Shown: positions 42,649-63,204 of the stretch, in pieces
How the letters are laid out: each line of letters starts with the position of its first letter
How positions within the stretch are numbered: position 1 is the first letter of the stretch
Assembly (NCBI GenBank): GCA_021234155.1
Contig: JAJEKV010000014.1
Span: 2,472,971-2,536,970 of the forward strand
Reading direction: 5' to 3'
Source of the DNA: Isoetes taiwanensis
Lineage: Eukaryota > Streptophyta > Lycopodiopsida > Isoetales > Isoetaceae
Length of the DNA stretch: 64,000 nt
Notes under the pieces: model-generated
What the model was told of the DNA's origin: nothing
Database searches by the model: none
Seen by the model: only the letters and a program-made list of their open reading frames with translations
Translations under genes and position numbers: made by a program

Positions 42649-45150
42649 TGTAACAGATCTGACCACTTGATGGGCCAGTATACGTACTTATATACGTATG
42701 TACATATGCATGGCATGTATGCAGCATGAGACCAGGGTTTTGTCTCTTTGGAGAAAGGATTGTTGCAGAGCATGAAGGCAGAGAGCAATTCTAGGCAGTT
42801 TCGGAGCACGAAATTTGAAGCATCATATCTCAGCGACTTGATATCCTTTTTAGATGATTTTTTATTTTTTATTTTTTATTTTTTATATGAAAAGGTCTTC
42901 AAGCAAGCTTTCTGAATTGGGTCTAACCAGATCAAAACTCATCCATATGAGAATGTTATGACAGAAATTGTAATGCTGGGTCAGAATTGACTGCACTATG
43001 TATGTTCTTCTGCAGTTTAATTCTTGGAGCTAGAAGACGATCTTTTGAGGTACAAACAATTGCAAGGGGTTCAGAGGTCCATGCATGAAGGAATTCTCTA
43101 GACAACGCTCTGAGTAGGCAAGAGCATGAAGACATCAAGGAGGCCAGGCCCACCTCTTGATGCACCTCTATACTCACTTCTTCCTCTTCCCCGATTCCTT
43201 CTATCAGGTGCACCAGGGGCATCTTCCACTTCTCTTGGTCTTTTCATCATAGGAGTATTATAATCTTAGAATCTAGGTGGTTTTATTAACCGTTCAATAC
43301 ATCTCAGCCCATTACCATTATGGTCTTCAAATAATTTGGCCTCTGGATTATTAACATATTCCAGGAGTCCTTCCATCATAAATTTTCGAATAAAATGCAA
43401 GATCAGGCATTGCTGGATCAAGGCCTCAATACCAGGATTAGAGCTCCAGATTATGAACTGACTCCATCTAGAAACAATAGAATCTCCCTTGAAGAATAAT
43501 TCCAGATGGTTCATCATGAACCACAATATATGATCCATCCATAGTACTCCTTTTGAGGTGCATGAATTCTGGGGGTGTGGACAACGACAATAAGGCCTTT
43601 TAGTTTGGCCATTTAGTTTCATAGTCATTCCCCTGTGCCTTGCTAGCTGTAGGCAAATCCTTTTTTACTAAGGCAATTAATGGTTCCTCAGCACATTTGT
43701 AAGGATCAAATGAAGCCTAGGAGAACTTTCGAATACTAGTCTCCCTATCACATACAACAGTACCCATGCTAGCAAAGTTGGCATATTTGTCCATCCATGT
43801 GGCATAAGAGGATTTATCAACTTCTATTCCTCCTAAATAACAATATGCCTCAATAGGTATCGGGGCAAGTAAGTAAAATGAATAGAGCTTCCATACTTTA
43901 TTATCCTTCTCTCCTGCCCATTGCTCAACTAGTCTTTTTGGTACTAGTGGGAGTAGAGTACCTCTTAAAAAATAAAAGAGGGTTACTTTGTTTCTGAAGC
44001 TGCTCCTCAGCATATTCCTTAGAGATTGCATGTGCCTCAGCCCCCTTTAGTTTAGGGTTTGATCCATCTGGAGCAACATTAGAAGTTCTCTCATCACATT
44101 TTAGCATAGGGTATTTTAGGGTTTGATCCATCTGGAGCAACATTAGAAGTTCTTTCATCACATTTTAACGTAGGGTATACTTCTCCGTTAGCAAGTTTGA
44201 GATCTTTAAACTGTTCTAGGACTTGCTTAGACATTTCTATATCTTTTTTGTCTGATTCCACAAGTTCAAATAATTTGGTTTCGAATGACTTCAAATGTTT
44301 TACATTGCCACTTTGATGCTAGCAGACATACAGATCTATAATTTGATCTGTACTAATAAATAGACACTTTTATGCTTCGTTAGAACATCGAATTTAACAA
44401 AAAATGGTGGAGGAAACCAGAGAATCTAGTTTTATGGATGTAGAGGACGAGCCCACTACCCAGCTCAATGACAATCAGGTCAGAAATATAATAATGGGTC
44501 CTATAGTTTGGTTCGATATAATTATATTAGAAGCTTGTTGCTTTAAATTAAAAACAAACATATTGCCTACAATATTCTAGATATATGTGATTTAATAGTT
44601 TATTTGGTGGCTCTGGATTTTTCTTTTTATTTGTATATTGCTTATAAAGAGCTGGAAAATAGATACGATGGCTTGAACTGATTAAAATGAAGCATGCATG
44701 ATTAGGACTAGATCTAGATTTTCCTTGATTCCTCGACACCGATAGCAAGGGGGGTTTTATAAAAAGCATTGACACCTGTCTTCCACATATTGGTTACCGT
44801 ACTAACATGTGTTACGTTTTTGTGACTCAAGTTATGTCCTAAAGTTCTGCTTTGTGATAAAATTTAAGACTTGTCCGAAACATCATCATGCTACTTAATA
44901 TGGTTCTATCGGAATTATCTAATCTGATCAATTCTTATGATGTGTATATTGAGAATATTATGGATATCAAATCTTCTGGATCTTTTGTTGTCTTTGATGA
45001 ATAAGAATAGATCATATCCAATGGCAAAGTTTAAATTAAATTCTTCACCAATACTATAGCTTTTGTCAAGTTTAAAATCCATTTAGTTCTAGCCTTAAGT
45101 TAGACAAGATCCTGAGTTGCCAAGAGGGCCAACTCGGCAGACTCATCACA
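42649..45150 (+). repeat. 3' LTR of the long-LTR element
   Basis: It starts TGTAACAG after the purine tract. It ends near ACTCATCACA, where the flank's hexanucleotide array begins. Its tail is nearly identical to 49,840-50,668. Confidence 0.7.
42960..44330 (-). other. Antisense coding-like stretch inside the 3' LTR
   Basis: On the strand opposite to the element, several long frames in a row read as protein-like sequence. From its N-terminal side it has a charged, helix-forming segment (LFELVESDKKDIEMSKQV), a middle part with aromatic-rich motifs (WKLYSFYLLAPIPIEAYCYL), and a basic Arg/Gly-rich tail near 43,150-43,200 (RGRGRSEYRGASRGG). The layout suggests a nucleic-acid-binding, possibly Gag- or capsid-like, protein of roughly 400 residues. 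It is broken at several points. I do not recognise the family. The 5' LTR keeps only the ends of this stretch. Confidence 0.45.
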
Positions 45151-45151
45151 A

Positions 45152-45213
45152 CCTCTACCTCTACCTCTACCTCTACCTCTACCTCTATCCCTGTCTCTAT
45201 CTCTATCTCTTTA
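45152..45213 (+). repeat. (CTCTAC)n / (CTCTAT)n hexanucleotide array, left copy
   Basis: About six copies of ACCTCT followed by related CTCTAT/CTGTCT units, directly after the LTR end. The array is repeated one unit shorter at 50,668-50,722. Confidence 0.9.
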
Positions 45214-45483
45214 TTCAATTCTTGTTGCCTCATTGTATTATATCTCTGTTATTGTGCTACATATTCTAAATGAGGTGCACCCTGTACTACCACAGTCGTC
45301 GGATCCGTCGATCCTATGGCCCAGATCGTACGTTGGAACCTCCTGGCACCTCTCGTTTCGCTTATGATCATTTATGATTGGGGGCACCTATGATTTTAAA
45401 GTATGAAACACGAGTTTGCCTAAGGTTTTAATGGAATATCGAGCTTCTATACGGCTTTGCCTAAGGTTTTAGAATATAAAAAA

Positions 45484-45552
45484 TAGGGGCTCGAACCTCT
45501 ACCAAGATCTTAGTAAGACTACTTTAACCAACATAACCAATGAGCTAAGGTG
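45484..45552 (-). repeat. tRNA-derived SINE head or tRNA relic, left copy
   Basis: Read on the minus strand, an A-box-like TTAGCTCATTGGTTA (45,534-45,548) is followed about 37 bp later by a B-box GGTTCGAGCCCC (45,486-45,497). Both are at tRNA-like spacing for a pol III internal promoter. No CCA or matched acceptor stem is visible. Downstream on the minus strand a short motif (AAAACCTTAGGCAAA) occurs twice, which would fit a SINE body. It is duplicated at 50,945-51,014. Confidence 0.6.
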
Positions 45553-45639
45553 ATTATTTTTTAGTTTAAATTCCACGCTTTTATAACAACTCACCAATTG
45601 TTTTGGAATATGGTCTATGGTTTCAGGAATTGTCATTTT

Positions 45640-46140
45640 TACATCCCTATCAAATTCCCCTGGAACCCCCTGTTATTGTGCTATATATTCCTTCCATGAT
45701 ATGCCAATCTGATCTACTGCATTGGCCATCCTTTTTTATTGCTTCATGTGCAAAACATTGAAAGGCAAGTTGCACAATATAATGCACCTGCACACATCTA
45801 TCCTAGTTTGTTCATCGCCCAGCCTTTCTTTGCTTAATCTTCCTTGTTTGATCTTCTTCAAGGAGGCCCTCAGAATCGCTATATGTATAGCAAAGGGCTT
45901 TACTCCAAGCTTGCACTTCGACAGGAACTTTAAGTGAAAAACTTCCTAACTTATCTTGTATTTCCTTTACAATGCCTTGTGAAATCTTCTCGCAATGTCC
46001 CTTTTTTTCTTGTAGGTAAACCATGCAACAAAAGACTCAACGTCTATTGTAGACTGGCTTGAGTTCCCATTCTAAAGCACAGTCTACTAGTCCCGCTTCG
46101 CGAAAATGTGTAGTAGCCAATTTCATAATGCAACATGCCT
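45640..46140 (-). pseudogene. BED/hAT-type transposase fragment, left copy
   Basis: Minus-strand frames show, in order, a Lys/Glu-rich segment (KGHCEKISQGIVKEIQDKLG) like the linker after a BED zinc finger. They then show RIDVCRCIILCNLPFNVLH followed by KRMANAVDQIGI. The latter resembles the start of the DUF659/hAT core, whose family pattern is a small-residue helix, then IPFN, then a following MVDAI-type helix. The reading register changes between these pieces and several stops interrupt them, so it is a dead fragment of a hAT-like DNA transposon. The DDE residues and the C-terminal dimerisation domain are not found. No inverted ends or 8-bp target duplication could be placed. Confidence 0.4.
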
Positions 46141-46740
46141 ACAAGACATGAAAATGACAGACATTCAAAAATTGCTTTCAAAAAAAAAGGCCGTGAACTT
46201 GCTATCCCTTGGGCCCAATTTTCATTTTCTCTAAATTGGTTACATTAAACTCTATTGTACTTTCTTTCATTTCATCATGCATCAAAGACAATTCTACACC
46301 TTCTTACAAATAAAGGATTAGAGAAGTTTATATGTGATCCAACTCGCGCATTAGAAAATGCATCAAACACACATTTCAAGTTGATTGCAAAAATGTTATC
46401 AATATTCATGAACTCCAATAATAACTGTACTAATTCACTTTACTAATGCACTAGCAACCTATACGAGAGTCATAGTATAAATATTATGTAAGCATAAGAT
46501 AAAGCAGAGAAGTAATAGTACCTCGGGACAGAAGGGACTAGAATCATGCTTTTGGGATTCATGCGCATAGATGGGGGAAGGCTACCTACTACCTTCTTAT
46601 TTCCAGCTACACTATCGCCAAGCTAGAAAACAAGAGGAGGTCAAATCCAAGTGCCCACGAACAACAAAGGCAATAAATACACATGAGCACTACTATAATC
46701 AACGCGTACTAAGGCACCAATATTTATACCCCAAATGGCA

Positions 46741-46948
46741 GGGAAAAAAGGGAATATTCTAGAATATGACCTATTCCACAAAATGTTCCAAGATATTTAC
46801 TCTACAATATAAACCTACCAAACAGAGGTTTGCCCTTAGACCTATAGATGAAAAAGTTATTAAATTCATTGGCCTTCTTTAGTTCATGATAGAACTATAT
46901 TGGCCTTCTTTAGTTCATGATGGGACTCTGAACATGCATCTCCATATA
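46741..46948. other. Segment present only in the left duplicate
   Basis: About 208 bp, starting after CCAAATGGC and ending before CCTCTAATAAAAG, is absent from the right copy at about 52,199. A GGC microhomology at both edges suggests a deletion in the right copy. Inside it, a unit of about 34 bp containing ATTGGCCTTCTTTAGTTCAT occurs twice in tandem. Confidence 0.7.
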
Positions 46949-47165
46949 GGCCTCTAATAAAAGACTGGTCAAATGGTGTTTGGAACCCTTTACGATTATC
47001 ATGAGATGCATTTTTAGTCACGCCCTTGTTTGTAACCTCTCCACCTACGTGTCGCAACAAACCCATGATTATGCTTATCATCCCTCAAATAGTATTATCC
47101 ATTTTTGTCAAGCATAAGTTGGAGCACGTGTAAGTGAGGACATGTTGAAGTAACACATGCATTTA

Positions 47166-49345
47166 TCTATCTACACATATATAAGTTATTATGTCCGATA
47201 GGGACGCCCACGTGGCAGCAAGACATGCATTCTAACGTTAACGCATGTTTTTCCCGGACATTTTTTTTGCAAGAAAAAAAGAAAAGAGAAAGATGCTTCG
47301 GTTTGAGGCCCGCGACCGCTATTATGGGAATCCTCAGACGCAAAGAAGCCAAGGAGTTCCGTGAGGGCGCCGTGATAAGCTCCCCGCCCGAAGCTTTTGC
47401 ACCTTCGTGATCGCCGCCTTTGCTAGTCCGGAATACGTTTTTTTTCCCTTGCCTCCAAGCCTAAACTACACAGGCTTTTTGCCCTCCGATCCCGGACCAT
47501 GAGTTCTTTCAGTTAGAAATGGGCGTATCACATTGTGCCTAGATATAAAATGGCGCTAGATCAAAAGAGCGGAGCTAGTTTCAATGCTTATGGCGTTGGA
47601 AGCAGAAAGCATTCCTCGCTGTCGCCTTTGTGGGATGCCTCAGGCATGGGTGGTTGTTGTTGCTCAGGCAGCCATGGCTTCTTTTATGTGGCCATCCTTT
47701 ATGTACCTCCACTCTTATTTGGGCTTAATCTTGTGTCTTTCAAACATCTTATGCTTCAACGATTTGGTTGTGCAACTATCTCTTCTATAGCTGCCCGGCA
47801 TTCGCCTCTCTTCCTTCTTTCTGCAGACGTGGTTCATTCTAACTAGCTTCATTGTCAATGTCAACATGTTGATTGTATGAATCTATGAAACGATCCTCGC
47901 TAAAACCAATTACATAATACTCTAGCAATGCTTTGAAGAGCAAATTATATAAAAATTTGGAATCTATTGAATTTCAATGTGTCTTTGCCCTGAAAGATGC
48001 CATGATATATGTGTTTGCAGAAAAGCAAACAAGCAAGCTTTGGTTTTATAGACCTTCTTGGAGTATTGGACGTACGCATAGACCATTTAGTAAGCACCGT
48101 TCAATTGGTTACACATGCATTGCATTGTGCTGAGTTTGGCTTTTAGTCAGGATCATATGTTTGTTGGATCACCACTAGAAAGATTGGACCTTTGTTTGAC
48201 CACAAAATGAGCATTTTTGCTACCAGCATATATACTTTTGCCATCTCATTATTTGCATTGTGGAAGAATACCAAAGCTGCTCTCTTTAGAATGAATTTGG
48301 TGATACAAATGACAATGAGAACTCAAGAAAACAAGCTGTTCCTATTCCCCCTGCTACCAATAACAGATTGATCTTTTTTATCTCTAAGAACATCCGTTTC
48401 CCAGATACTCAAAAACTTACTCTGAAGTCTATAAAAGCTCGATTCTTGTGCTTATTTTCTGAAAAACAAAATGGGCTTATATAAAACCTTATCTTTAGGT
48501 TGCATTCCCGCATTGATATAACATTGTCCCATGTGTATTGTTGTTTGCGTGACATGTGCCCGCTTAACTTCTCGCTTATAGTGTTAGCTAGTTGAGCTTG
48601 GTTTGAATACTTTTAATTCGGGGTGCTCATGGGTAACAATATGTCTTCGGCTTGTAAACCTCCTTGGCTTACATTGTTATAGTGTTTTTTGCGGTTGCAA
48701 GTCGCGGCTCTTTCCCTCATCAAGTTGATGGGACATTTTACCTTGGGTCAATAGCAGTGGATGTTTTGACTTCGTTTGAACAGAGCGCACAATAGACGAT
48801 ATGCTCGTACAAAAGTATTTTCAGACTAGCACGTTTTTTAAAGATGGACGTTCTTGCATGGAGGAACTATGTGATGGTACTACAATGCTATTATTTTCTC
48901 ATTTTCTAGTCCTCTTTGGGGACTTTGATCACCTGATGCCCCATTGTGCATTTCCGTCCATAGCCATTTATATGAGACAATGTACATAGCATAGAATGTA
49001 GATACAGCGGATCCTTGCAGTGAAGAGTGTACATAGAGCAAGCCTGCTCTTACTTCTTTAATATTAGTTATTTGTTCTAAGTAATTCCATTTTTTTTTAC
49101 CATTGTTTTTCTGTATTGATTCCATTTGGTCAAGACAACTAGGAGAAAGAGCAATATCATAATGAAGAAGCAAATTTTCATAATAGTTGTTGCTTAATAG
49201 TCCAAACCTTTATGTATAGGGGGATGCCCATCGGTCGCACTTTCCGATGTGGCCGGTGACCTGCTCCTAGACCTACCCTTATAAAAGTAAGGTGGGGAAG
49301 AGAAATGTTCGCGGCGGCCTTGGCCGCCGCGATAAATTTCTTGTA
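47166..49345 (+). mobile_element. Helitron-like insertion, 2,180 bp
   Basis: Compared with the uninterrupted right duplicate (52,413/52,414), this segment sits exactly between an A and a T of CATTTA^TCCCTAA, with no target duplication. It begins TCTATCTACACATATATAAG, close to plant Helitron 5' ends that start with TC. It ends with a GC-rich hairpin (49,310-49,331) 14 bases from the edge. The last bases are CTTGTA rather than the usual CTRR, so the family assignment is open. Inside is a plus-strand frame of 103 codons at 47,535-47,846 with no known domain, and no Rep/helicase, so it would be non-autonomous. A precise deletion from the other copy is the alternative. Confidence 0.55.
49310..49331. 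repeat. GC-rich hairpin near the 3' edge of the insertion
   Basis: CGCGGCGGCC, TT, then the exact reverse complement GGCCGCCGCG. A perfect 22-bp inverted repeat in otherwise AT-rich DNA, at the position expected of a Helitron termination hairpin. Confidence 0.9.
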
Positions 49346-50667
49346 TCCCTAATTGATATTTCTCATGAATGTCTTTTTTTTTTTTTGCTTCCATGCAACA
49401 TAAAGTTCCAAAATTTTCTCTATTGAGGATATACTCATGGAGGCCCACGACATCAATCATTATAATCAAAACCGATTCACAATCGGAACAGGGATAGGAG
49501 CTTCGCTCAGAAATAACTCACCAATCGCGGTCCAGAAGAGCTGCCCAGAAGGACTTTTCCAAGCTTTCATTTCTATATAATCGGTCTACGGTAGAAATCG
49601 AACATCTGTTCATTATCTATCTGTATGAACTAAGATAATTTTGATAAATTATTCATGATAATTCCTAGGTTAGGAAGTAGATACTGTGAGATTTACAGCT
49701 GGAAATCCGTTTTTGATCTTCAAGGCCCCAATAATATCATCATATTGCTGGCTACAAGGTATTTGAATTCAATTTTATTTCCTTCTAGATTCTATAAGTT
49801 GGAGAACCTGTATCATTATATAGAATGTAAAATTGATGCTAGCAGACATACAGATCTATAATTTGATCTGTACTAATAAATAGACACTTTTACGCTTCGT
49901 TAGAACATCGAATTTAACAAAAAATGGTGGAGGAAACCGGAGAATCTAGTTTTATGGATGTAGAGGACGAGCCCGCTACCCAGCTCAACGACAATCAGGT
50001 CAGAAATATAATAATGGGTCCTATAGTTTGGTTCGATATAATTATATTAGAAGCTTGCTGCTTTAAATTAAAAACAGATTTATTGCCTACAATATTCTAG
50101 ATATATGTGATTTAATAGTTTATTTGGTGGCTCTGGATTTTGCTTTTTATTTGTATATTGCTTATAAAGAGCTGGAAAATAGATACGATGGTTTGAACTG
50201 ATTAAAATGAAGCATGCATGATTAGGACTAGATCTAGATTTTTCTTGATTCCTCGACACCGATAGCAAGGGGGGTTTTATAAAAAGCATTGACACCTGTC
50301 GTCCACATACTGGCACATGTACTAACATGTGTTCTGTTTTGTGACGGTTATGTCCTAAAGTTCTGCTTTGTGATAAAATTTAGGAGTAGTCTGAAACATC
50401 ATCATGCTACTTAATATGGTTCTATCGGAATTATCTAATCTGATCAGTTCTTATGATGTATATATTGAGAATATTATGGATATCAAATCTTCTGGATCTT
50501 TTGTTGCCTTTGATGAATAAGAATAGATCATATCCAATGGCAAAGTGGAAGATTAAATTCTTCACCAATACTATAGCTTTTGTCAAGTTTAAAATCCATT
50601 TAGTTCTAGCCTTAAGTTAGACAAGATCCTGAGTTGCCAAGAGGGTCAACTCGGCAGACTCATCATA

Positions 50668-50722
50668 ACCTCTACCTCTACCTCTACCTCTACCTCTATC
50701 CCTGTCTCTATCTCTATCTCTT
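50668..50722 (+). repeat. (CTCTAC)n / (CTCTAT)n hexanucleotide array, right copy
   Basis: The same array as at 45,152, one unit shorter, in the duplicated flank. Confidence 0.9.
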
Positions 50723-50944
50723 TATTCAATTCTTGTTGCCTCATTGTATTATATCTCTGTTATTGTGCTACATATTCTAAATGAGGTGCACCCTGTACGA
50801 ACCTCCTGGCACCTCTCATTTCGCTTATGATCATTTATGATTGGGGGCACCTATGATTTTAAAGTATGAAACACGAGTTTGCCTAAGGTTTTAATGGAAT
50901 ATCGAGCTTCTATACAGCTTTTCCTAAGGTTTTAGAATATAAAA

Positions 50945-51014
50945 AATAGGGGCTCGAACCTCTACCAAGATCTTAGTAAGACTACTTTAACCAACATAAC
51001 CAATAAGCTAAGGT
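50945..51014 (-). repeat. tRNA-derived SINE head or tRNA relic, right copy
   Basis: A duplicate of 45,484-45,552 with the same B-box and an A-box that has one base changed (GAGCTAA to AAGCTAA on the plus strand). Confidence 0.6.
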
Positions 51015-51109
51015 GATTATTTTTTAGTTTAAATCTATGTTTTCTTTTATAACAACTCACTCAATTGTTTTTGGAATATGGTCTATGGTTTCAGGAATTG
51101 TCATTTTTA

Positions 51110-51600
51110 CATCCCTATCAAATTCCCCTGGAACCCCCTGTTATTGTGCTATATATTCCTTCCGTGATATGCCAATCTGATCTACTGCGTTGGCCATCCT
51201 TTTCGATTGCTTCGTGTGCAAAACATTGAAAGGCAAGTTGCACAATATAATGCACCTGCACACATCTATCCTAGTTTGTTCACTGGCCCAACTTTCTTTG
51301 CTTAATCTTCCTTGTTTGATCTTCTTCGAAGGAGGCCCTGTAACTGTCATATGTATAGCAGGGCTTTACTCCAAGCTTGCACTTCAACATGAACTTTAAG
51401 TGAAGAACTTCCTAACTTATCTTGTATTTCCTTTACAATGCCTTGTGAAATCTTCTCGCAATGTCCCTTTTTTTCTTGTAGGTAAACCATGCAACAAAAG
51501 GGCTTGAGTTCCCATTCTAAAGCACAATCTACTAGTCCCGCTTCGCGAAAATGTGTAGTAGCCAATTTCATAATGCAACATGCCTACAAGACATGAAAAT
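51110..51600 (-). pseudogene. BED/hAT-type transposase fragment, right copy
   Basis: A duplicate of 45,640-46,140. Here two minus-strand frames are longer: 69 codons at 51,141-51,350 with RIDVCRCIILCNLPFNVLH and KRMANAVDQIGI, and 74 codons at 51,347-51,571 with the KGHCEKISQGIVKEIQDKLG segment. The two are in different registers and overlap by a few bases, so at least one frameshift separates the putative BED linker from the hAT core. The right copy lacks a stop present in the left copy between the IPFN-like motif and MANAVDQ. It remains a fragment without catalytic domain or ends. Confidence 0.4.
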
Positions 51601-52478
51601 GATAGACATTCAAAAATTGCTTTCCTCATGTACATCAAAAGGCCGTGAACTTGCTATCCCTTGGGCCCAATTTTCATTTTCTCTAAACTGGTTACATTAG
51701 ACTCTATTGTACTTTCTTTCATTTCATCATGCATCAAAGACAATTGTACACCTTCTTACAAATAAAGGATTAGAGAAGTTTATATGTGATCCAACTCGCG
51801 CATTAGAAAATGCATCAAACACACATTTCAAGTTGATCGTAAAAATGTTATCAATATTCATGAACTCCAATAATAACTGTACTAATTCACTTTACTAATG
51901 CACTAGCAATCTATACGAGAGTCATATAAATATGGAGTTGATGCTATGTAAGCATAAGATAAAGCAGAGAAGTAATAGTACCTCGGGACAGAAGAAACTA
52001 GAATCATGCTTTTGGGATTCATGCGCATAGATGGGGGAAGGCTACCTACTACCTTCTTGTTTCCAGCTACACTATCGCCAAGCTAGAAAACAAGAGGAGG
52101 TCAAACCCAAGTGCCCACAAACAACAAAGGCAATAAATACACATGAGCACTACTATAATCAACGCGTACTAAGGCACCAATATTTATACCCCAAATGGCC
52201 TCTAATAAAAGACGGGTCAAATGGTGTTTGGAACCCTTTACGATTATCATGAGATGCATTTTTAGTCACGCCCTTGTTTATAACCTCTCCACCTACGTGT
52301 CGCAACAAACCCATGATTATGCTTATCATCCCTCAAATAGTATTATCCATTTTTGTCAAGCATAAGTTGGAGCACGTGTAAGTGAGGACATGTTGAAGTA
52401 GCACATGCATTTATCCCTAATTGATATTTCTCATGAATGTCTTTTTTTTTGCTTCCATGCAACATAAAGTTCCAAAAT

Positions 52479-53524: not shown

Positions 53525-53549
53525 TACTACAAGAGAATGATGGCTAAAC

Positions 53550-53812
53550 GTCAGAATAATCGTCAGAGAGCTTTTATAAAATAGACAATTGCCCATGCCC
53601 TTAAATCGTCAGATAAATAGTCAGTCATAGTCAGATGATTAATCAGTAGAGTAGTCAGATAAATAGTCTGTAAATTAGTCATTTTCTTAGTCAGACTAAT
53701 AGTTAGAGGCTTAATCAGCTTATTAGTTAGATAAATCGTCATCTACTTAGTCAGTTAATTTGGCATTTTATTAGTCAGTGCAATAGTTAGAATATTGATC
53801 ATCATATTTGAT
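53550..53812 (+). repeat. Left 12-bp array (GTCAGNNNANTA)
   Basis: About 17 units, most exactly 12 bp, run from 53,608 to 53,812, for example GTCAGATAAATA, GTCAGACTAATA and GTCAGTGCAATA. Two outlying GTCAG sites lie nearer the end. The first five bases are the most conserved. Confidence 0.9.
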
Positions 53813-53849
53813 GGTCTACATGTATTGTGATGTTTATATCCAAACAGGG

Positions 53850-53930
53850 ATTTGAACCCTGATATTCCAGCTTGTAATAAGACTCTAAACTTAATAGAGT
53901 GTACAAATTAAACAACACAATTGATTGAAA
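53850..53930 (-). other. tRNA-like relic inside the CACTA-like element
   Basis: On the minus strand CAGGGTTCAAATCCCTG forms a perfect 5-bp TPsiC arm with a canonical B-box. Upstream, CTCTA and TAGAG enclose a 7-base loop TTAAGTT that could be an anticodon arm (AAG). About 20 bases lie between the two arms, as in a long variable loop. No D arm or acceptor stem is convincing. It is probably a decayed tRNA or SINE head, not a working tRNA. Confidence 0.35.
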
Positions 53931-55838
53931 AATCTTAACAGCACATCGTTCTAGCATAAAAAAGAAAATTTGCTTGTAGATCTGCATTTGCAATCATAAT
54001 AACAGCAAAAATCAAAGAAAAGTGCGAATAATACCATCACATCTATAAACATTGAAATGACATCACATATGGAGAGAAGAGAAAGTGAAGTTACCTCGTC
54101 ATGAAAAAAGCAACGAAATAAACATACATGACCATTGGATGACCTGAATTTAAAAACATACAGAGAACATCATGAACATGCAATATGAAAATGGGACTAC
54201 AAAAATTATACATTAAACTACTTCGCAATGCAAAATTCAAATAACCTACAAACAAGCTTAATCTCGCCTAAGATAATTCATGCTAAAAAAGTATCTTCCC
54301 TTGGATAACAGGTCTTTAAATTTTGATCCATGTGATAATGCTTGCTAACTCATTCTTTTTGTAAAAATTGAGCACCGAAAGGAGCAAAAAAGCACAATAC
54401 ATGAAAAATACCTTGATCTCGAATTTATAATGTTGTGTGCCTGCTATTAAATATCACTTAGAATGCAAGACAAGGACTAACTGGACATGATAGTAAGATT
54501 AACCAGTCCTTAAGAGAGCATAATGCCAGCATATGCTTGAACCTAGACTAGAATTTTTTCTGTAGAAATAAGGAAGAGTTAAACTTTCCAAGAAATGGAA
54601 CATCTATGCCGTAACATATTTAATCTGCAAAATTTATCATCTGCAGAATGCTACATCTGCAACAACGAAAATCATGAAACATATTCTAGAAAGGAGTCGA
54701 AAATCATAAGAGAAACAAGAATATTAAAAGCATACCCTAAAGCTTCTGAAATACCTTAGTTTCTGAACAATAAGAAAAATGTCAGAACCAGCGAAAATTT
54801 TAGTGGCCCCGGCGGGCCATTTGGCCACAAATTACAGGTTCAGGCAAAATGCGACTGCCGGCTTGAGTAGGATGCCTTACCTACGGATGACTTGCAGATT
54901 CGCCATTTCATGGCACTTTGTTGCCTATTACGACATTAGAATGGCCAATTAGATGTTTGCTAATTGGAGTGGTATGGACTTTGGGGCCAATTTAGTCCCA
55001 ATTGAGAACTAGATATGCCTATGGAATGGCCATTTAGGCCACTTGGCCAAATCCTGTAATACCTTAAGTTTTCCACCCCCTCATAAATTCGTCACTTATG
55101 GGGGGGGTTAACATTATTGAAATTTTGTTTGAAATTACCAGGAACTGCACGATTATATGGCTGGGGAAAATGGGCTGCGCCTAAAATCATCCCAAGTGCT
55201 GCTATTCCTAAATATATCTACCAAATAAGAATAATCCCGCTCTTTTGGAAAATCAAATGTCGAGGCACTTTTCAATCCTCTTTACGAAGACTCCGGCATC
55301 CGATTTTCGATTCTCCCTACCAGCAATATGTGCATTATTGAAATACATGGGTATGAATTCAAATTCATACAACATGTAACCTAAATACATTTATATAGGG
55401 TAGCGACTTCTTTATGTTCAGGCAACTAGCTCTATATTTAATAAGAATCTAGCTAAAAATCGCCATTTGAGATACACATTATTAGATATTTGGTTCAAAA
55501 ATTGCCAATTGGGTTGCTGCCACATTAGAAAAAAATAGGAAAAATGGCCAGTTCAGGCTACACTTTTGGGGGCATATTTTACAAGGAATGGCCAATTCAT
55601 TATACTTATACAAAATTATAGATCCCTTAAAATTTTCCCTGGTCAGAACAAGAGCATGCACCGGAAAAACATTTCACGTGTAGTAGAATGCTTAGAATCT
55701 TTAAGAAATTGAAGGAATTACCTAGATACGATCTAAAAAATAATGCAGGATAAAGAACTGGCGCCTCCGGCAGCAAGGAGGAAGAAGTGGGACACGTAAG
55801 AGAAAATGCCACGACGACATAACAATTCCATCCATTTA
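53931..55838. other. Body of the CACTA-like element
   Basis: AT-rich, without a transposase-like frame. A GC-richer patch near 54,800-55,030 repeats short GGCCATTT and GGCCACTTGG-type strings, and GGCCA recurs up to about 55,590. Nothing else is identified. Confidence 0.4.
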
Positions 55839-56205
55839 GTTAACATAATAGTCAAAAAATTAGTCAGCCTACTCATCAACATTTGCGAGAGGTAATTAGT
55901 CAGACATTTAGTCAGACAAATGGTCATACAGTTAGCCAGTTTTTTAGTCAGCAATTTAGTCAGCATAATCGTCAAAAATGATTCGTCAGACTATTCATCA
56001 CCTTATTAGTCACATTAATAGACAACATATTATTCAGGCGACAAGTCAAAGTAAACGTCAGGGAATTCGTCGGATGATTATTTGTCAGTTTTTTAGTCAG
56101 ATTTTTCGTCAGAACTAAACGTCAGTTTATTGATCAGATCAACAGTCAATGCAATTGTCAAATATACAGTTGACAAATCGTTTTGGCTCCTCTGACGATT
56201 TTGTT
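55839..56205 (+). repeat. Right 12-bp array (GTCAGNNNANTA)
   Basis: Some 25-30 units in the same orientation as the left array, for example GTCAGACATTTA, GTCAGCAATTTA and GTCAGCATAATC, mostly at 12-bp spacing. An 80-codon minus-strand frame made of LT-type tetrapeptides results from the 12-bp period and is not taken as a gene. Confidence 0.9.
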
Positions 56206-56469
56206 GACATTTAGTAGTCATTCTCTTGTAGTAACAATGGAAAAATTCAATTGTTAAGTTAAAGATTAAATCATTGTGCAATATATTATCATCTCATTCT
56301 TGAATTCAAGTGGCATTTGTATCTAATTAAACACTAGAAATGTGTGCTCAACGATGCCAGACATTGGTTGTAGACGCCTGGCATGGGTAGATGTAATGGA
56401 ATTCGTAAATGGAATGAAATGTTGTAGATTTGCTATGTCTATAGATGGAATGAGGTATGAAGATGTGAT

Positions 56470-56640
56470 GTGGAACGTGAAGAGGGAGGGCATTCTTGCC
56501 AGCCCCCTGACCTCTGCAAAATCCGGGAGCGCTGTTGCCAGCCCCCAGACTTGCAAAATCCGAGAGTGCCGTTAAGGCGCGACCGGATTCGGCAGAGTTC
56601 AGGGGGCTGGCAAGAATGCTCGATCCCTTAACGTTTCCAC
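56470..56640. repeat. Foldback element with inverted arms
   Basis: The left arm (56,470-56,534) and right arm (about 56,573-56,640) are inverted repeats sharing GCATTCTTGCCAGCCCCCTGA and GTGGA..ACGT at the outer edge. A third, direct copy of part of the arm (TTGCCAGCCCCCAGAC) lies between them. Such a long GC-rich snapback stands out from the AT-rich surroundings and resembles a MITE or foldback transposon. No target duplication is clear. Confidence 0.75.
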
Positions 56641-58392: not shown

Positions 58393-58573
58393 TCTCAATA
58401 AACAGTTATATTAGGATATCAAAAGAGAGATGGCAGATATATTCATATAAGATGGTTACAGCAGAAATATATTGTCCCGGAGGACACGACTCTTGGACTA
58501 GACGTGACTCCTACAGACGCCTATAGTGACATGTCAGCATCCAAAGCTGACTCAGCATTCCATTATGTTAACA
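58393..58573 (-). repeat. 3' LTR of the copia element
   Basis: On the minus strand it starts TGTTAACA and ends TTATTGAGA. It is 181 bp long and matches the other LTR at all but two positions. Confidence 0.95.
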
Positions 58574-58582
58574 CTCCCACTC
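58574..58582 (-). promoter_or_regulatory. Polypurine tract of the copia element
   Basis: On the minus strand GAGTGGGAG lies directly before the TGTTAACA start of the 3' LTR. Confidence 0.85.
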
Positions 58583-60150
58583 AGCTTGGATGCAGTAACT
58601 TTCTTTCCATGTCCAAGATCCTCATAAGTTCTCGATCTCTCTGAAACTTGTCACAGGATGGAGCTTTGGTCAGGATATCAGCTATCATGTCTTCAGTAGG
58701 GCAGTACTTCAAACTAAGCACTCCATTTTGCACCTGTTCTCTGATAAAATGGAATCTAGTTTCTATATGTCGCGTTCTGCCCTGATATTTTGCTGAAGAT
58801 GCTAAAGCAACTGCACTATTGTTATCACAAAATATAACAGTTACTCCCACTTGCTCTAGCATAACTCCTGCCAACAACTGGCGCAGCCAAATAGCTTCTT
58901 GAGCTGCTGCACATGCTGCTATATACTCGGCTTCAGTACTGGACAAGGCCACAATTGGTTGTCTCTTGCTTTTCCATGAAATCATGCATCCACCAAGCAT
59001 GAAAACGAAACCAGAAGTTGATTTCCTTGTGTCAATCTCTCCAGCCCAGTCTGAATCTGTGTATCCGACCAACTTAAAATCCTTTGAGTCTACTTTCTGA
59101 TATACCAAGGCATAAGTCTTTGTCCCTTGCACATATCTCATGATTCGTTTAACTGCAATCCAATGTTGCTTTCCTGGATTCTCCATGAATTGACTTGCAA
59201 CTCCCACTGCATATGATAAATCTGCTCTTGTACAAACTGCTAAGTATATCAGGCATCCTACTGCATGGCGATATGGAATCTCTTGCATTTCAAACTGTTC
59301 ATCCTCACTGTTTGGAGCCATGTCCGCAGTAAGCTTTATACTGACATCCATTGGAGTATTGACAGGTTTACAATCTTCCATCTGAAACCTCCTAAGTACT
59401 TCTTCAACATACTTGGTCTGCTCCAATTTCAGCCAGCCTTGTTCCCTGTTTCTAGTAATTTGAATTCCTAGACAGTAATGGATTTCGCCAAGGTCTACCA
59501 TCTCAAACTCACTTGCAAGTTGTTTCTTCACTTGTTCCAAGAATACTAGGGTGTTGGACACCAATATGCAGTGATCTACATATAGTGCCACTATCACAAA
59601 AAACTCTCCCACCGATTTTACATACACATTTCCATCTGCTTCTGTATTATGGAACCCAAGAGTGTGAAGGTATCCATTGATGCGATCATACCAAGCCTTA
59701 GGAGACTGTTTGAGCCCATAAAGAGCTTTCTTCAGTTTGCATACCTTAGATTCCTTCCCCTTAATCTCATAACCATGAGGTTGTGAGATAAAAATCTCTT
59801 CTTGTAAGTCGCCATGAAGGAAAGCTGTTCTGACGTCCATTTGATGAACTTCCAAGTCTAACTGAGCTGCCATGGCTAAAAGAATGCGAATCGAAGATAT
59901 TCTTACCACGGGTAAGAAAGTTTCAGTAAAGTCTACTCCAGCAACTTGGGAGAACCCGCGGGCCACGAAACGTGCTTTGAATCGATCAATTTGTCCTGCC
60001 GCATTCTTCTTCACCTTGAAGATCCATTTGGTGCTAACTAGCTGGCGCCCAGGTGGTAGGGAAGTAAGTTCCCAAGTGTGGTTCTTTAAAAGGGAATCAT
60101 ATTCGGAATCCATGGCTTTCTTCCATTCTGCTGCGTATGGCCCAGAAAGT
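58581..60150 (-). other. Copia reverse transcriptase and RNase H part
   Basis: The reverse-transcriptase (RVT_2) domain lies at about 59,390-60,140, with the family's WIFKVKKN, VHQMDVRTAFLHGDL and ALYGLKQSP blocks. RNase H lies at about 58,630-59,080, with YTDSDWAG, STSGFVFML, SSTEAEYIA and the terminal ADILTK motif. The order after integrase is diagnostic of Ty1/copia rather than gypsy. Confidence 0.92.
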
Positions 60151-60849
60151 GCATCTTGCACTGTTGCAGGTTCTTCGGGATTGGAATAAGCTGCAGCAAA
60201 GTAACCTCTTGGTGTCTTACCATGAGATTTGGATGTCTCAAGTGCATCCATGGCCTTCTGACTCAGAAAACTAGTGCGACCAGATTTGGTCACACCCCAA
60301 GAAGGACGATTGTTGGTTGTGATATCCACCTTCTTGCCCTTATGTACCCTGGCGTATGTAACTGGGGACCTGCGGGACTGAAAACCAGGAATGTCTTCAA
60401 TGTCTTGAACTTCAGGAACATTATTCATTTATGGGAGGAACAAGATTAATGGACTCTTCAACTGTTGTGGCATCAGGAGAATGGGATCCACTGGATGATG
60501 CTAGATGTATAGAGGAGGCTGATGTATCTGTCACGCACCACTCATCTAACACATCAAAATCAAGAACACTTCCACTGATATTGATGTTGGGCAGCCCTCC
60601 ATAGTATAAGTCCTCATTAAAAGTCACATCACGGCTGACCAGTACTCTGTGGGATTCAAGATTATAGAGACGATAGGCTTTAGTTTCTGTACAATAGCCA
60701 ATCAGCACGCATTTAATACTCTTCCAATCTAGCTTCTTTCGCCTTTCATCTGGAATGTGAGCATAAGCCATGCAGCCAAAAGTTCGAAGATGCTTCAATG
60801 CAGATCTCTTGCCAGTCCACAGTTCAAAAGGAGTCTTCGCAACTATTGC

Positions 60850-61504
60850 AGCAGTAGGCAACCTATTCCTGAGATATGCTGCAGTTATTATGGCTTCACC
60901 CCAAAAAGAATTCGGCATTCCAGCATACTTGAGCATGGTCCTAGCACACTCTACTAAAGTTCTATTCATGCGCTCGGCTACTCCATTCTGTTGCGGGGTA
61001 TATGGAGCAGTCACTTGATGAACAATGCCATGCTCTTGGCAGTACCTCTGAAACTCCAACGAAGAGTATTCACCACCATTGTCACTTCTTAACATCTTGA
61101 TTCTCCTCCCTGTTTGGTTCTCTACTTGCCGTTTGAATTCTATAAACATGCCAAATACTTCAGATTTTCTAGCAAGCAGCCTTACTGTTACAAATCTGGA
61201 GAAGTCATCTATGAAGGTGAGCATGTAGCGTTTCTTTCCAGCAGTCATTGTTTGCATGGGGCCACACACATCCGTGTGTATAATTTCCAACAAATTTGCT
61301 GCTCTATTACTCTCTCCCACGAAATGGCCGTCTGGTCTGCTTGCCCATGTGCTTGCCCATGATGCATGCTTCACAAAATTCCAGATTCTCTTCATCTAAA
61401 GTGGGCAGATCAGTCACCATGCCTTCTTTCACCAATTGCTGAATTGCTTGTACATGAGGATGCCCAAGACGATTGTGCCATAGCTGCAAGTTAGAGGATT
61501 TGCA
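60850..61504 (-). other. Copia integrase part
   Basis: A GAG_pre-integrase zinc-binding segment (LWHNRLGHPHVQAIQQL, later CEACIMGK) is followed by the catalytic core with HTDVCGPM, RSDNGGEYSS and the QNGVAERMNRTLVE block. Downstream, to about 60,440, is the variable linker that precedes reverse transcriptase in plant copia elements. Confidence 0.92.
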
Positions 61505-61599
61505 TACAGCCAAGGCATGTGGCTGCTCTGTAATGCATGCATCAAGACGGTATAATCCACCCTCTCTCGTTCCTGTTGGCACTTGTTCTCCATACTCAT

Positions 61600-62800
61600 C
61601 AAATATATGACATTTTGTTGTGGTAAAGGTAAGTCTCAAGCCTGTATCAGCAATCTGCCCAACTGATAATAAAGTATGTGCTAATCCAGGCACATAATCG
61701 TGAATTTCGCGTGCACATCCTCCAATCTGCACCATGATTATTCCCTTTCCCTGAACTTCAAGTGCTGAGCTGTTGCCCACATAAACTTGCTTCTCATGAG
61801 ACGGCCTTAGACTGTAAAATATTTCTCGCAGTGGAGTCATGTGCATGGAAGCTCCGGAGTCCAACCATATTGCACGATTTGTGCCTGCTGCCATGAAGGT
61901 GTGGACCATAAACAATCTTCCTCCAGGTCTATGCTCATTAGAACTTCCATTGCGATCCATTCTCCGAGGGACACTACTGCTGCGTTCAAATGTTGAGCGC
62001 ATCCTACAGTCTCTAGCAATGTGTCCTTGCTTTCCACATTTGAAACAAGATCCTCGTTTGCCTTTGTCCAATCTCATTGGATTGTTATTAAAGCTGTCTC
62101 TTCCACCGCTGTTAGAATTGGCAGCAGAATTATAAGGGACCATGGGCTTCTTTCCAAAATTCCCAAATCTCTGCTTCTTGTTAATGAAAAATGCTGAATT
62201 CTTCGTACTTCCTATTTCCTTCAACTTTCTTTCTTCTTCTAGCAGTGCCGAAGTCAATGTTTCCATGGTTTGATGTGGAATATTTGTAAGAGCACTTACA
62301 ATAGAGCGATAATCAGGCGCCAATCCTTTCAACAAGACAGCCATTTGATCTTCCATGGATACTATGGCTTTTACTCTTGCTAGCTGGACAACTAGACATC
62401 GAATTCGGCTTACAAATTCTGCAATTGATTCTCCCGCATTCATTTCTAAATCAAAGAACTGCTGCTTTAATGATAATTCACAAGCCTTCCCCTGTCCGCC
62501 AAACGCTGCCACTAATGCATCCCAATTTGCTTTGGAAGATTTAGTCAGATCTACAAGGTGCACATATCCTTCTCCAAGTGCCAAACCAATTGTGGTTATG
62601 GCTTTTCTGTCCCTCATCTCCCACTCTGGAATTTTTGTTGCCTCTGTTGGCTTGGCTTCTGTGCCATCAATTATATTCCAGGTTCCTTCTCTCATTAATA
62701 CTAATTGAAGTTTTACTGACCAGGTGTGGAAATTATCACCAGTAAACTTCTCAAGAAATTTTTCAAGAAATTTATCAAGGCTTTGTGATGTGCCTGCCAT
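61600..62800 (-). other. Copia Gag and protease part
   Basis: It starts MAGTSQSLDKFLEKF. A Gag domain of the UBN2/retrotran_gag type (FHTWSVKLQLVLM, then the LLKGLAPDYRSIVSAL block) precedes a CCHC zinc knuckle CFKCGKQGHIARDC at about 62,005-62,044. The aspartic protease core WLDSGASMHM lies at about 61,860. The N-terminus has a tandem repeat, KFLEKFLEKF. Confidence 0.92.
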
Positions 62801-63010
62801 TTTATGTAATCAAAGATTACTCAGATATGGAGAGCTCTTACAGGTAAATTCGTCCTGGATATGTAAGCCTTTTGAAGACGCTGATTCTCTGTTGCTGGCG
62901 TCTCCAAACCCTGCGCAAACGAAGTCTCTGGTTTACTCTCAGAAGGGCTAGACGTGCCCTAATTCTCTGGCGATGGTCTTCTCTGCGCTGCTCTCTATTT
63001 GCCATTGATA

Positions 63011-63023
63011 GGCTCTGATACCA
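63011..63023 (-). promoter_or_regulatory. Primer-binding site of the copia element
   Basis: TGGTATCAGAGCC on the minus strand is a perfect match to the plant initiator tRNA-Met 3' end and touches the end of the 5' LTR without a gap. Confidence 0.95.
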
Positions 63024-63204
63024 TCTCAATAAACAGTTATATTAGGATAGCAAAAGAGAGATGGCAGATATATTCATATAAGATGGTTACAGCAGAAATA
63101 TATTGTCCCGGAGGACACGACTCTTGGACTGGACGTGACTCCTACAGACGCCTATAGTGACATGTCAGCATCCAAAGCTGACTCAGCATTCCATTATGTT
63201 AACA
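63024..63204 (-). repeat. 5' LTR of the copia element
   Basis: 181 bp, TGTTAACA...TTGAGA on the minus strand. It is followed on the plus strand by the second AGTTG target copy (63,205-63,209). Confidence 0.95.

Follow-up and report, generated by a model that had tools for sequence, protein, structure and literature searches.

Accounts of plant CACTA elements, as far as their excerpted texts go, describe CACTA ends and subterminal repeats that lie in both direct and inverted orientation at the element ends (PMC8978399, PMC2613891, PMC8195511, PMC4219821, PMC7139988, PMC11790086); one further source gives CACT(A/G) termini and, in the portion consulted, no orientation of the repeats (PMC4423477). 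According to the same kind of excerpts, these repeats measure 10–20 bp and are bound by TNPA in En/Spm (PMC8978399, PMC2613891, PMC8195511), an element whose transposition depends on both the transposase and TNPA, with TNPA as the protein that recognises these repeats (PMC2613891, PMC8195511). A 12-bp motif is reported, in the parts of the texts consulted, for En-1 (PMC2613891) and for the Chenopodium CACTA element Jozin, which carries it in 19–23 copies, 8–13 per end (PMC8978399); an array of 12-bp units is therefore not new.

Positions 53525–56233 of the window (the whole 64-kb stretch of DNA that was analysed) are probably a decayed non-autonomous DNA transposon that worked like a CACTA (En/Spm-type) element. 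Its ends, its arrays and its nested hAT-like insert can be read from the bases themselves; by analogy with known CACTA elements it would also have been bound by transposase together with an accessory protein and have moved with the help of a partner. Formal membership in CACTA is unproven, given that T stands first at both ends, that no 3-bp duplication is adjacent and that no transposase was recognised. Since two defining CACTA features (first base and target duplication) were tested and found to differ here, we label the element CACTA-like in its working. It belongs to the wider class of non-autonomous transposons with terminal inverted repeats (TIRs) and subterminal arrays, and is mostly ordinary; the exceptions are the first letter of the tip at both ends and the rows of sites pointing one way.

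The two terminal inverted repeats span 44 bp each, at 53525–53568 on the + strand (tip TACTACAAGAGAATGA, holding the first two GTCAG units) and at 56190–56233 on the − strand (tip read on the + strand as TCATTCTCTTGTAGTA), a length in line with that of CACTA ends (10–28 bp or more). As had been proposed, 37 of the 44 positions match; the outermost 16 are identical, the next base outward is mismatched, and 7 of the 28 inner positions differ. Inside these ends lie a left subterminal array at 53547–53806 (+), comprising 20 units of 12 bp (WTMGTCAGNNNN) that all read on the + strand, and a right one at 55836–56165 (+), comprising 26 units of 12 bp in the direction of the left array. The original prediction of one 2.7-kb non-autonomous transposon stood as regards its non-autonomous, CACTA-like nature; it did not stand as regards a single unit, as a later hAT-like insertion of 861 bp lies within. 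Without the nested insert, the host element measures 1848 bp (2709 − 861, the latter being 853 bp plus one 8-bp duplication), and because it was hit by a second element it must be old enough for that. The host interior, to which no strand is assigned, consists of 53807–54780 to the left of the insertion, where no recognisable coding sequence was detected by Pfam in six frames, and of 55650–55835 to the right, between the second copy of the 8-bp duplication and the right array.

Among described elements, and within the excerpts of their descriptions, Jozin resembles the locus in having a 12-bp subterminal motif next to its inverted ends, and two of its four listed motifs (TATTTGCGTCAC) contain GTCA; it differs in tips that begin CACTA (CACTAGTAGAAA), in motifs of the form TATTTGTAACTA, TATTTGTAACGG or TATTTGCGTCAC, and in encoding a transposase, whereas the locus has 20 and 26 units (PMC8978399). 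The motif had been called unusually regular, which overstates the case in view of the 19–23 copies of a 12-bp motif given for Jozin in the part of the text consulted (PMC8978399). Maize En/Spm, likened here by its partial description, also has the TIR architecture and a 12-bp subterminal motif, its subterminal repeats being recognised by TNPA, but is autonomous, with tnpA and tnpD (PMC2613891). Subterminal repeats that differ in number between the two ends are also described in the excerpts for soybean Tgmt* (4 left and 24 right; PMC2613891) and TgmR* (PMC4219821); however, the Tgmt* motif is 17 bp long and occurs direct and inverted (PMC2613891), and both elements end in CACTA, carry coding regions and are flanked by a 3-bp target duplication (PMC2613891, PMC4219821). 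Lettuce LsC1, in the portion of its account available, is likewise non-autonomous (3.9 kb), lacks a transposase gene and has imperfect inverted ends, yet it shows a CACTA tip (CACTACTNGAAA), a 3-bp duplication (ACC) and reported somatic excision (PMC8195511). Raspberry RiCACTA1, in the excerpt of its description, carries such repeats at just one of its ends (PMC11790086). What appears to set the locus apart from published CACTA elements is T in first place at both ends, the one-way arrays and the GTCAG core.

T as the first tip base at both ends, as first noticed, was borne out. The tip is TACTACAAGA, and TACTA...TAGTA differs from CACTA in one of the five bases at either end, so that the termini are neither CACTA nor CACTG. 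When the tip sequence was searched allowing up to three mismatches, only two sites were found in the window, both exact and both being the element tips; 0.8 matches are expected in such a search, and at least two occurred in 19 of 100 shuffles. The ten-base CACTACAAGA, which we take to be the CACTA tip consensus, is present at both ends in nine of its ten bases. Allowing one mismatch, the window contains it twice, at the two tips, versus 3.9 matches expected by chance; a one-mismatch copy is thus no rarity, and it is only its placement at both tips that favours CACTA. Three forms of the element tip of 13–16 bases were not found in the literature text searched, two shorter words gave no transposon title among the 25 listed of the 80 papers that contain them, and CACTA, TACTA and ‘terminal inverted repeat’ as whole words had no joint occurrence in the literature searched.

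The T in first place is compatible with a T-tipped sublineage, and also with decay or with a TA target site. To decay we give somewhat less than an even chance: within the CACTA reading, an ordinary CACTA-tipped family would have had the C at both ends turned into T, perhaps via cytosine methylation, in which case T is no lineage trait. C-to-T decay is common in methylated plant transposons, and the missing target duplication together with the mismatches at 7 of the 28 inner positions of the ends suggests age; on the other hand, the remaining 15 bases of the tip agree between the ends, and two separate changes at just the corresponding first base would be coincidental.

The 3-bp target duplication that had been expected is absent at the boundaries 53525 and 56233, where CAA faces ACA. 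None of eight symmetric boundary shifts yields a 3-bp duplication, and two of the eight give 2-bp matches, namely TA two bases inward and CA one base outward, the tips no longer matching at the latter. Unequal shifts of up to two bases per side produced 3 bp in 2 of 25 combinations (CAA, with one extra A at the right, and AAT), an outcome that chance could account for. As there is no target duplication, the insertion boundary was drawn from the inverted ends alone. Placing the boundary two bases inward, which leaves TA on both sides, would turn the locus into a TIR transposon belonging to some other, TA-inserting superfamily, with the outer TA as target duplication and CTACAAGAGAATGA as inverted end, and would explain the T first at both ends in one stroke. 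We consider this improbable: TA is self-complementary, and any tip starting with TA gives the TA/TA match automatically; the ends of Tc1/mariner, a superfamily that inserts at TA, are listed as CTCCCTC in the part of the source consulted (Table 1, PMC4423477), versus CTACAAG here; and subterminal arrays are described for CACTA in a comparison that covered excerpts of the CACTA literature.

The arrays were assessed against the rest of the window. That 12-bp arrays at both ends are real, as had been stated, follows from local GTCA counts far above those elsewhere. There are 12 GTCA on the + strand and 0 on the − strand in 53525–53830, and 19 and 3, respectively, in 55791–56233, the GTCA at 56217, counted among the 19, being part of the tip and not of the array. 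Elsewhere in the 64 kb, segments of equal length taken every 10 bases on either strand contained at most 4 and 5, respectively. Pairs of GTCA exactly 12 bp apart number 4 in the left stretch and 9 in the right; no more than 1 such pair was seen elsewhere in the window, or in any of the 5000 mononucleotide shuffles made of either stretch. Of the 12 copies of the word TTAGTCAG in the window, nine lie within the arrays; 2.1 copies are expected in the window, and none of 100 shuffles reached 12. Repeats of 12 bp clustered inside both ends are in keeping with the 10–20-bp subterminal repeats of CACTA elements.

With respect to the number of units, the original prediction gave 17 on the left and 25–30 on the right; the 26 units kept on the right agree with it, and the 20 kept on the left exceed it. 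A spacing-tolerant chain comprised 25 positions on the left and 28 on the right, with exact 12-bp steps in 17 of 24 and 23 of 27 cases, respectively; the pitch is imperfect, although the 12-bp register of the left array is unbroken over 53627–53795. From this chain 20 of 25 and 26 of 28 units were kept, five and two being dropped for poor score or for lying off-register, and four units with a low score (2.4) were retained because they were in register. The chain score itself (102 left and 134 right, against no more than 23 for the rest of the window) was dropped as a measure of significance, since viral contigs reach 92 and 130 by slow drift over 600–700 poor units, and the local GTCA counts were used instead.

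The unit was also refined. The pattern first proposed, GTCAGNNNANTA, turned out to be fitted to the left end: all 5 places in the window that match it exactly fall in the left array, and with one mismatch it has 50 matches in the whole window versus 49 expected by chance. The improved consensus is WTMGTCAG followed by four free bases, with GTCAG exact in 20 of the 46 kept units. An early position-weight model that mixed both strands made the unit seem partly palindromic. Agreement between units over the six core columns is 0.78 (left) and 0.76 (right), values that are partly circular given that units were chosen by their core; in the last four columns, to which this does not apply, it is 0.37 and 0.35, with 0.33 expected from composition alone. 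At lags of 1–4 units, neighbours are no closer in their free columns than shuffled units (smallest p 0.11). Free columns that are near random, in neighbours no more alike than distant units, argue for a constrained site at fixed spacing rather than fresh tandem duplication. Recent tandem copying followed by decay would conserve all 12 columns and leave neighbours alike; judged on its columns, the array looks like a spaced binding site, and a 12-bp pitch with four free bases per unit is the pattern expected when site and spacing are both selected. For these reasons, and because both arrays adjoin the 44-bp inverted ends, a satellite-like 12-bp tandem repeat that came to lie at two places by chance, between inverted ends that also arose by chance, is hardly credible, even though Tandem Repeats Finder lists short arrays with periods of 12 and 24 on the left and of 12 on the right.

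The arrays of the CACTA-like transposon are best read as putative sites for a TNPA-like protein. A hairpin as the main function of the arrays was considered and rejected on single-strand folding: the left array is unremarkable (z 0.77, with 75 of 100 shuffles folding as well), and folding of the right array is weak (z −2.03, 3 of 100 shuffles), the inverted units being included in it.

Both arrays had been described as running in the same direction, which holds for the bulk of each and fails for three inverted units near the right tip. These lie on the − strand at 56167–56212, with TGAC at 56171, 56193 and 56205; the second and third of them fall within the inverted end. Where published CACTA elements are described with direct and inverted subterminal repeats, the locus has them mostly one-way, and its three inverted units are all near the right tip. 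The comparison was drawn from the text of papers, and known elements with one-way arrays may exist. A distinct CACTA-like lineage, defined by a TACTA tip and by end arrays that are polar save for the three inverted units at the right tip, is in our view rather unlikely. If it were true, the two ends would meet the accessory protein in opposite senses, the element would distinguish its left end from its right, and pairing of the ends might be confined to one geometry. Polar arrays, if a family trait, would provide a natural test of whether the orientation of TNPA-type sites matters in end pairing; as a single decayed copy, the locus is a matter of routine annotation with a nested insertion.

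In the mechanism that we propose for the CACTA-like transposon, an autonomous partner would supply transposase in trans, and this transposase would recognise the tip TACTACAAGAGAATGA. A TNPA-like accessory protein would bind the 12-bp GTCAG units beside both tips and bring the ends together, leading to cut-and-paste movement. Tips and arrays without genes would then make up a short element moved by the proteins of its partner. The 853-bp hAT-like element entered the interior of this host later.

The nested hAT-like non-autonomous element (853 bp, no strand assigned) occupies 54789–55641, has ends CAGCGAAAATTTTA and CAGGGAAAATTTTA that match at 13 of 14 positions, and is flanked by a target duplication of 8 bp, GTCAGAAC, whose copies at 54781–54788 (+) and 55642–55649 (+) form a perfect repeat. 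An 8-bp target duplication and inverted ends beginning CA are both found here, as tabulated for hAT in the part of the source consulted (8-bp target site and CA ends; Table 1, PMC4423477). It was the sole match in a scan of the window (starting points 1–61900) for CAG...CTG pairs that lie 200–2000 bp apart between exact 8-bp repeats. The 853 bp are rich in TGGCCA, with 6 of the 18 copies counted in the 64 kb; these six palindromes are possibly binding sites of the nested hAT-like element itself.

Coding content and relatives were searched for in several collections. Translation of 53525–56233 in six frames (with X at stops) gave nothing near the curated cut-off in Pfam, the three matches in all having E values of 0.076–0.23 and belonging to unrelated families. 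A TIR-derived pattern had no match in viral_contigs or genome_contigs, megablast against plasmids gave no match, and Rfam gave none in the window; the collections searched are microbial or viral, and absence there says little about a plant family. The 16-base tip was found in 27 stretches of viral contigs, one match each, and as none of these has the tip in both orientations in the DNA examined, the matches were taken as chance. The triple-unit pattern was found in three viral stretches (L028, L029 and L030); in L028 a 12-bp repeat is present three times. Near its high-coordinate end, on the − strand, the viral contig L029 carries a separate 12-bp array built of TAGTCAGCTTN units, which is perhaps a coding repeat and probably unrelated to the CACTA-like arrays.

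When 30 open frames of the window were scanned, family matches were obtained in three copia frames only. These belong to a copia retrotransposon on the − strand at 58393–63204, whose gag, integrase and reverse transcriptase domains are divided among three frames; it also has two LTR-like repeats of 181 bp (58393–58573 and 63024–63204) that are 99% alike. Taken with the CACTA-like features, this copia element suggests that the DNA comes from a plant. A direct repeat of ∼2.6–2.9 kb lies at 44313–47167 and 49833–52415, with a spacing of ∼5.25–5.5 kb and pieces that are 92–100% alike; parts of a third copy are present at ∼41.5–42.3 kb. This repeat may be a tandem duplication or a pair of long LTRs. 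Lastly, a 59-bp inverted repeat at 56474–56635 (81% complementary, 44 bp between the arms) forms a strong hairpin beside the CACTA-like element and is perhaps a foldback element.
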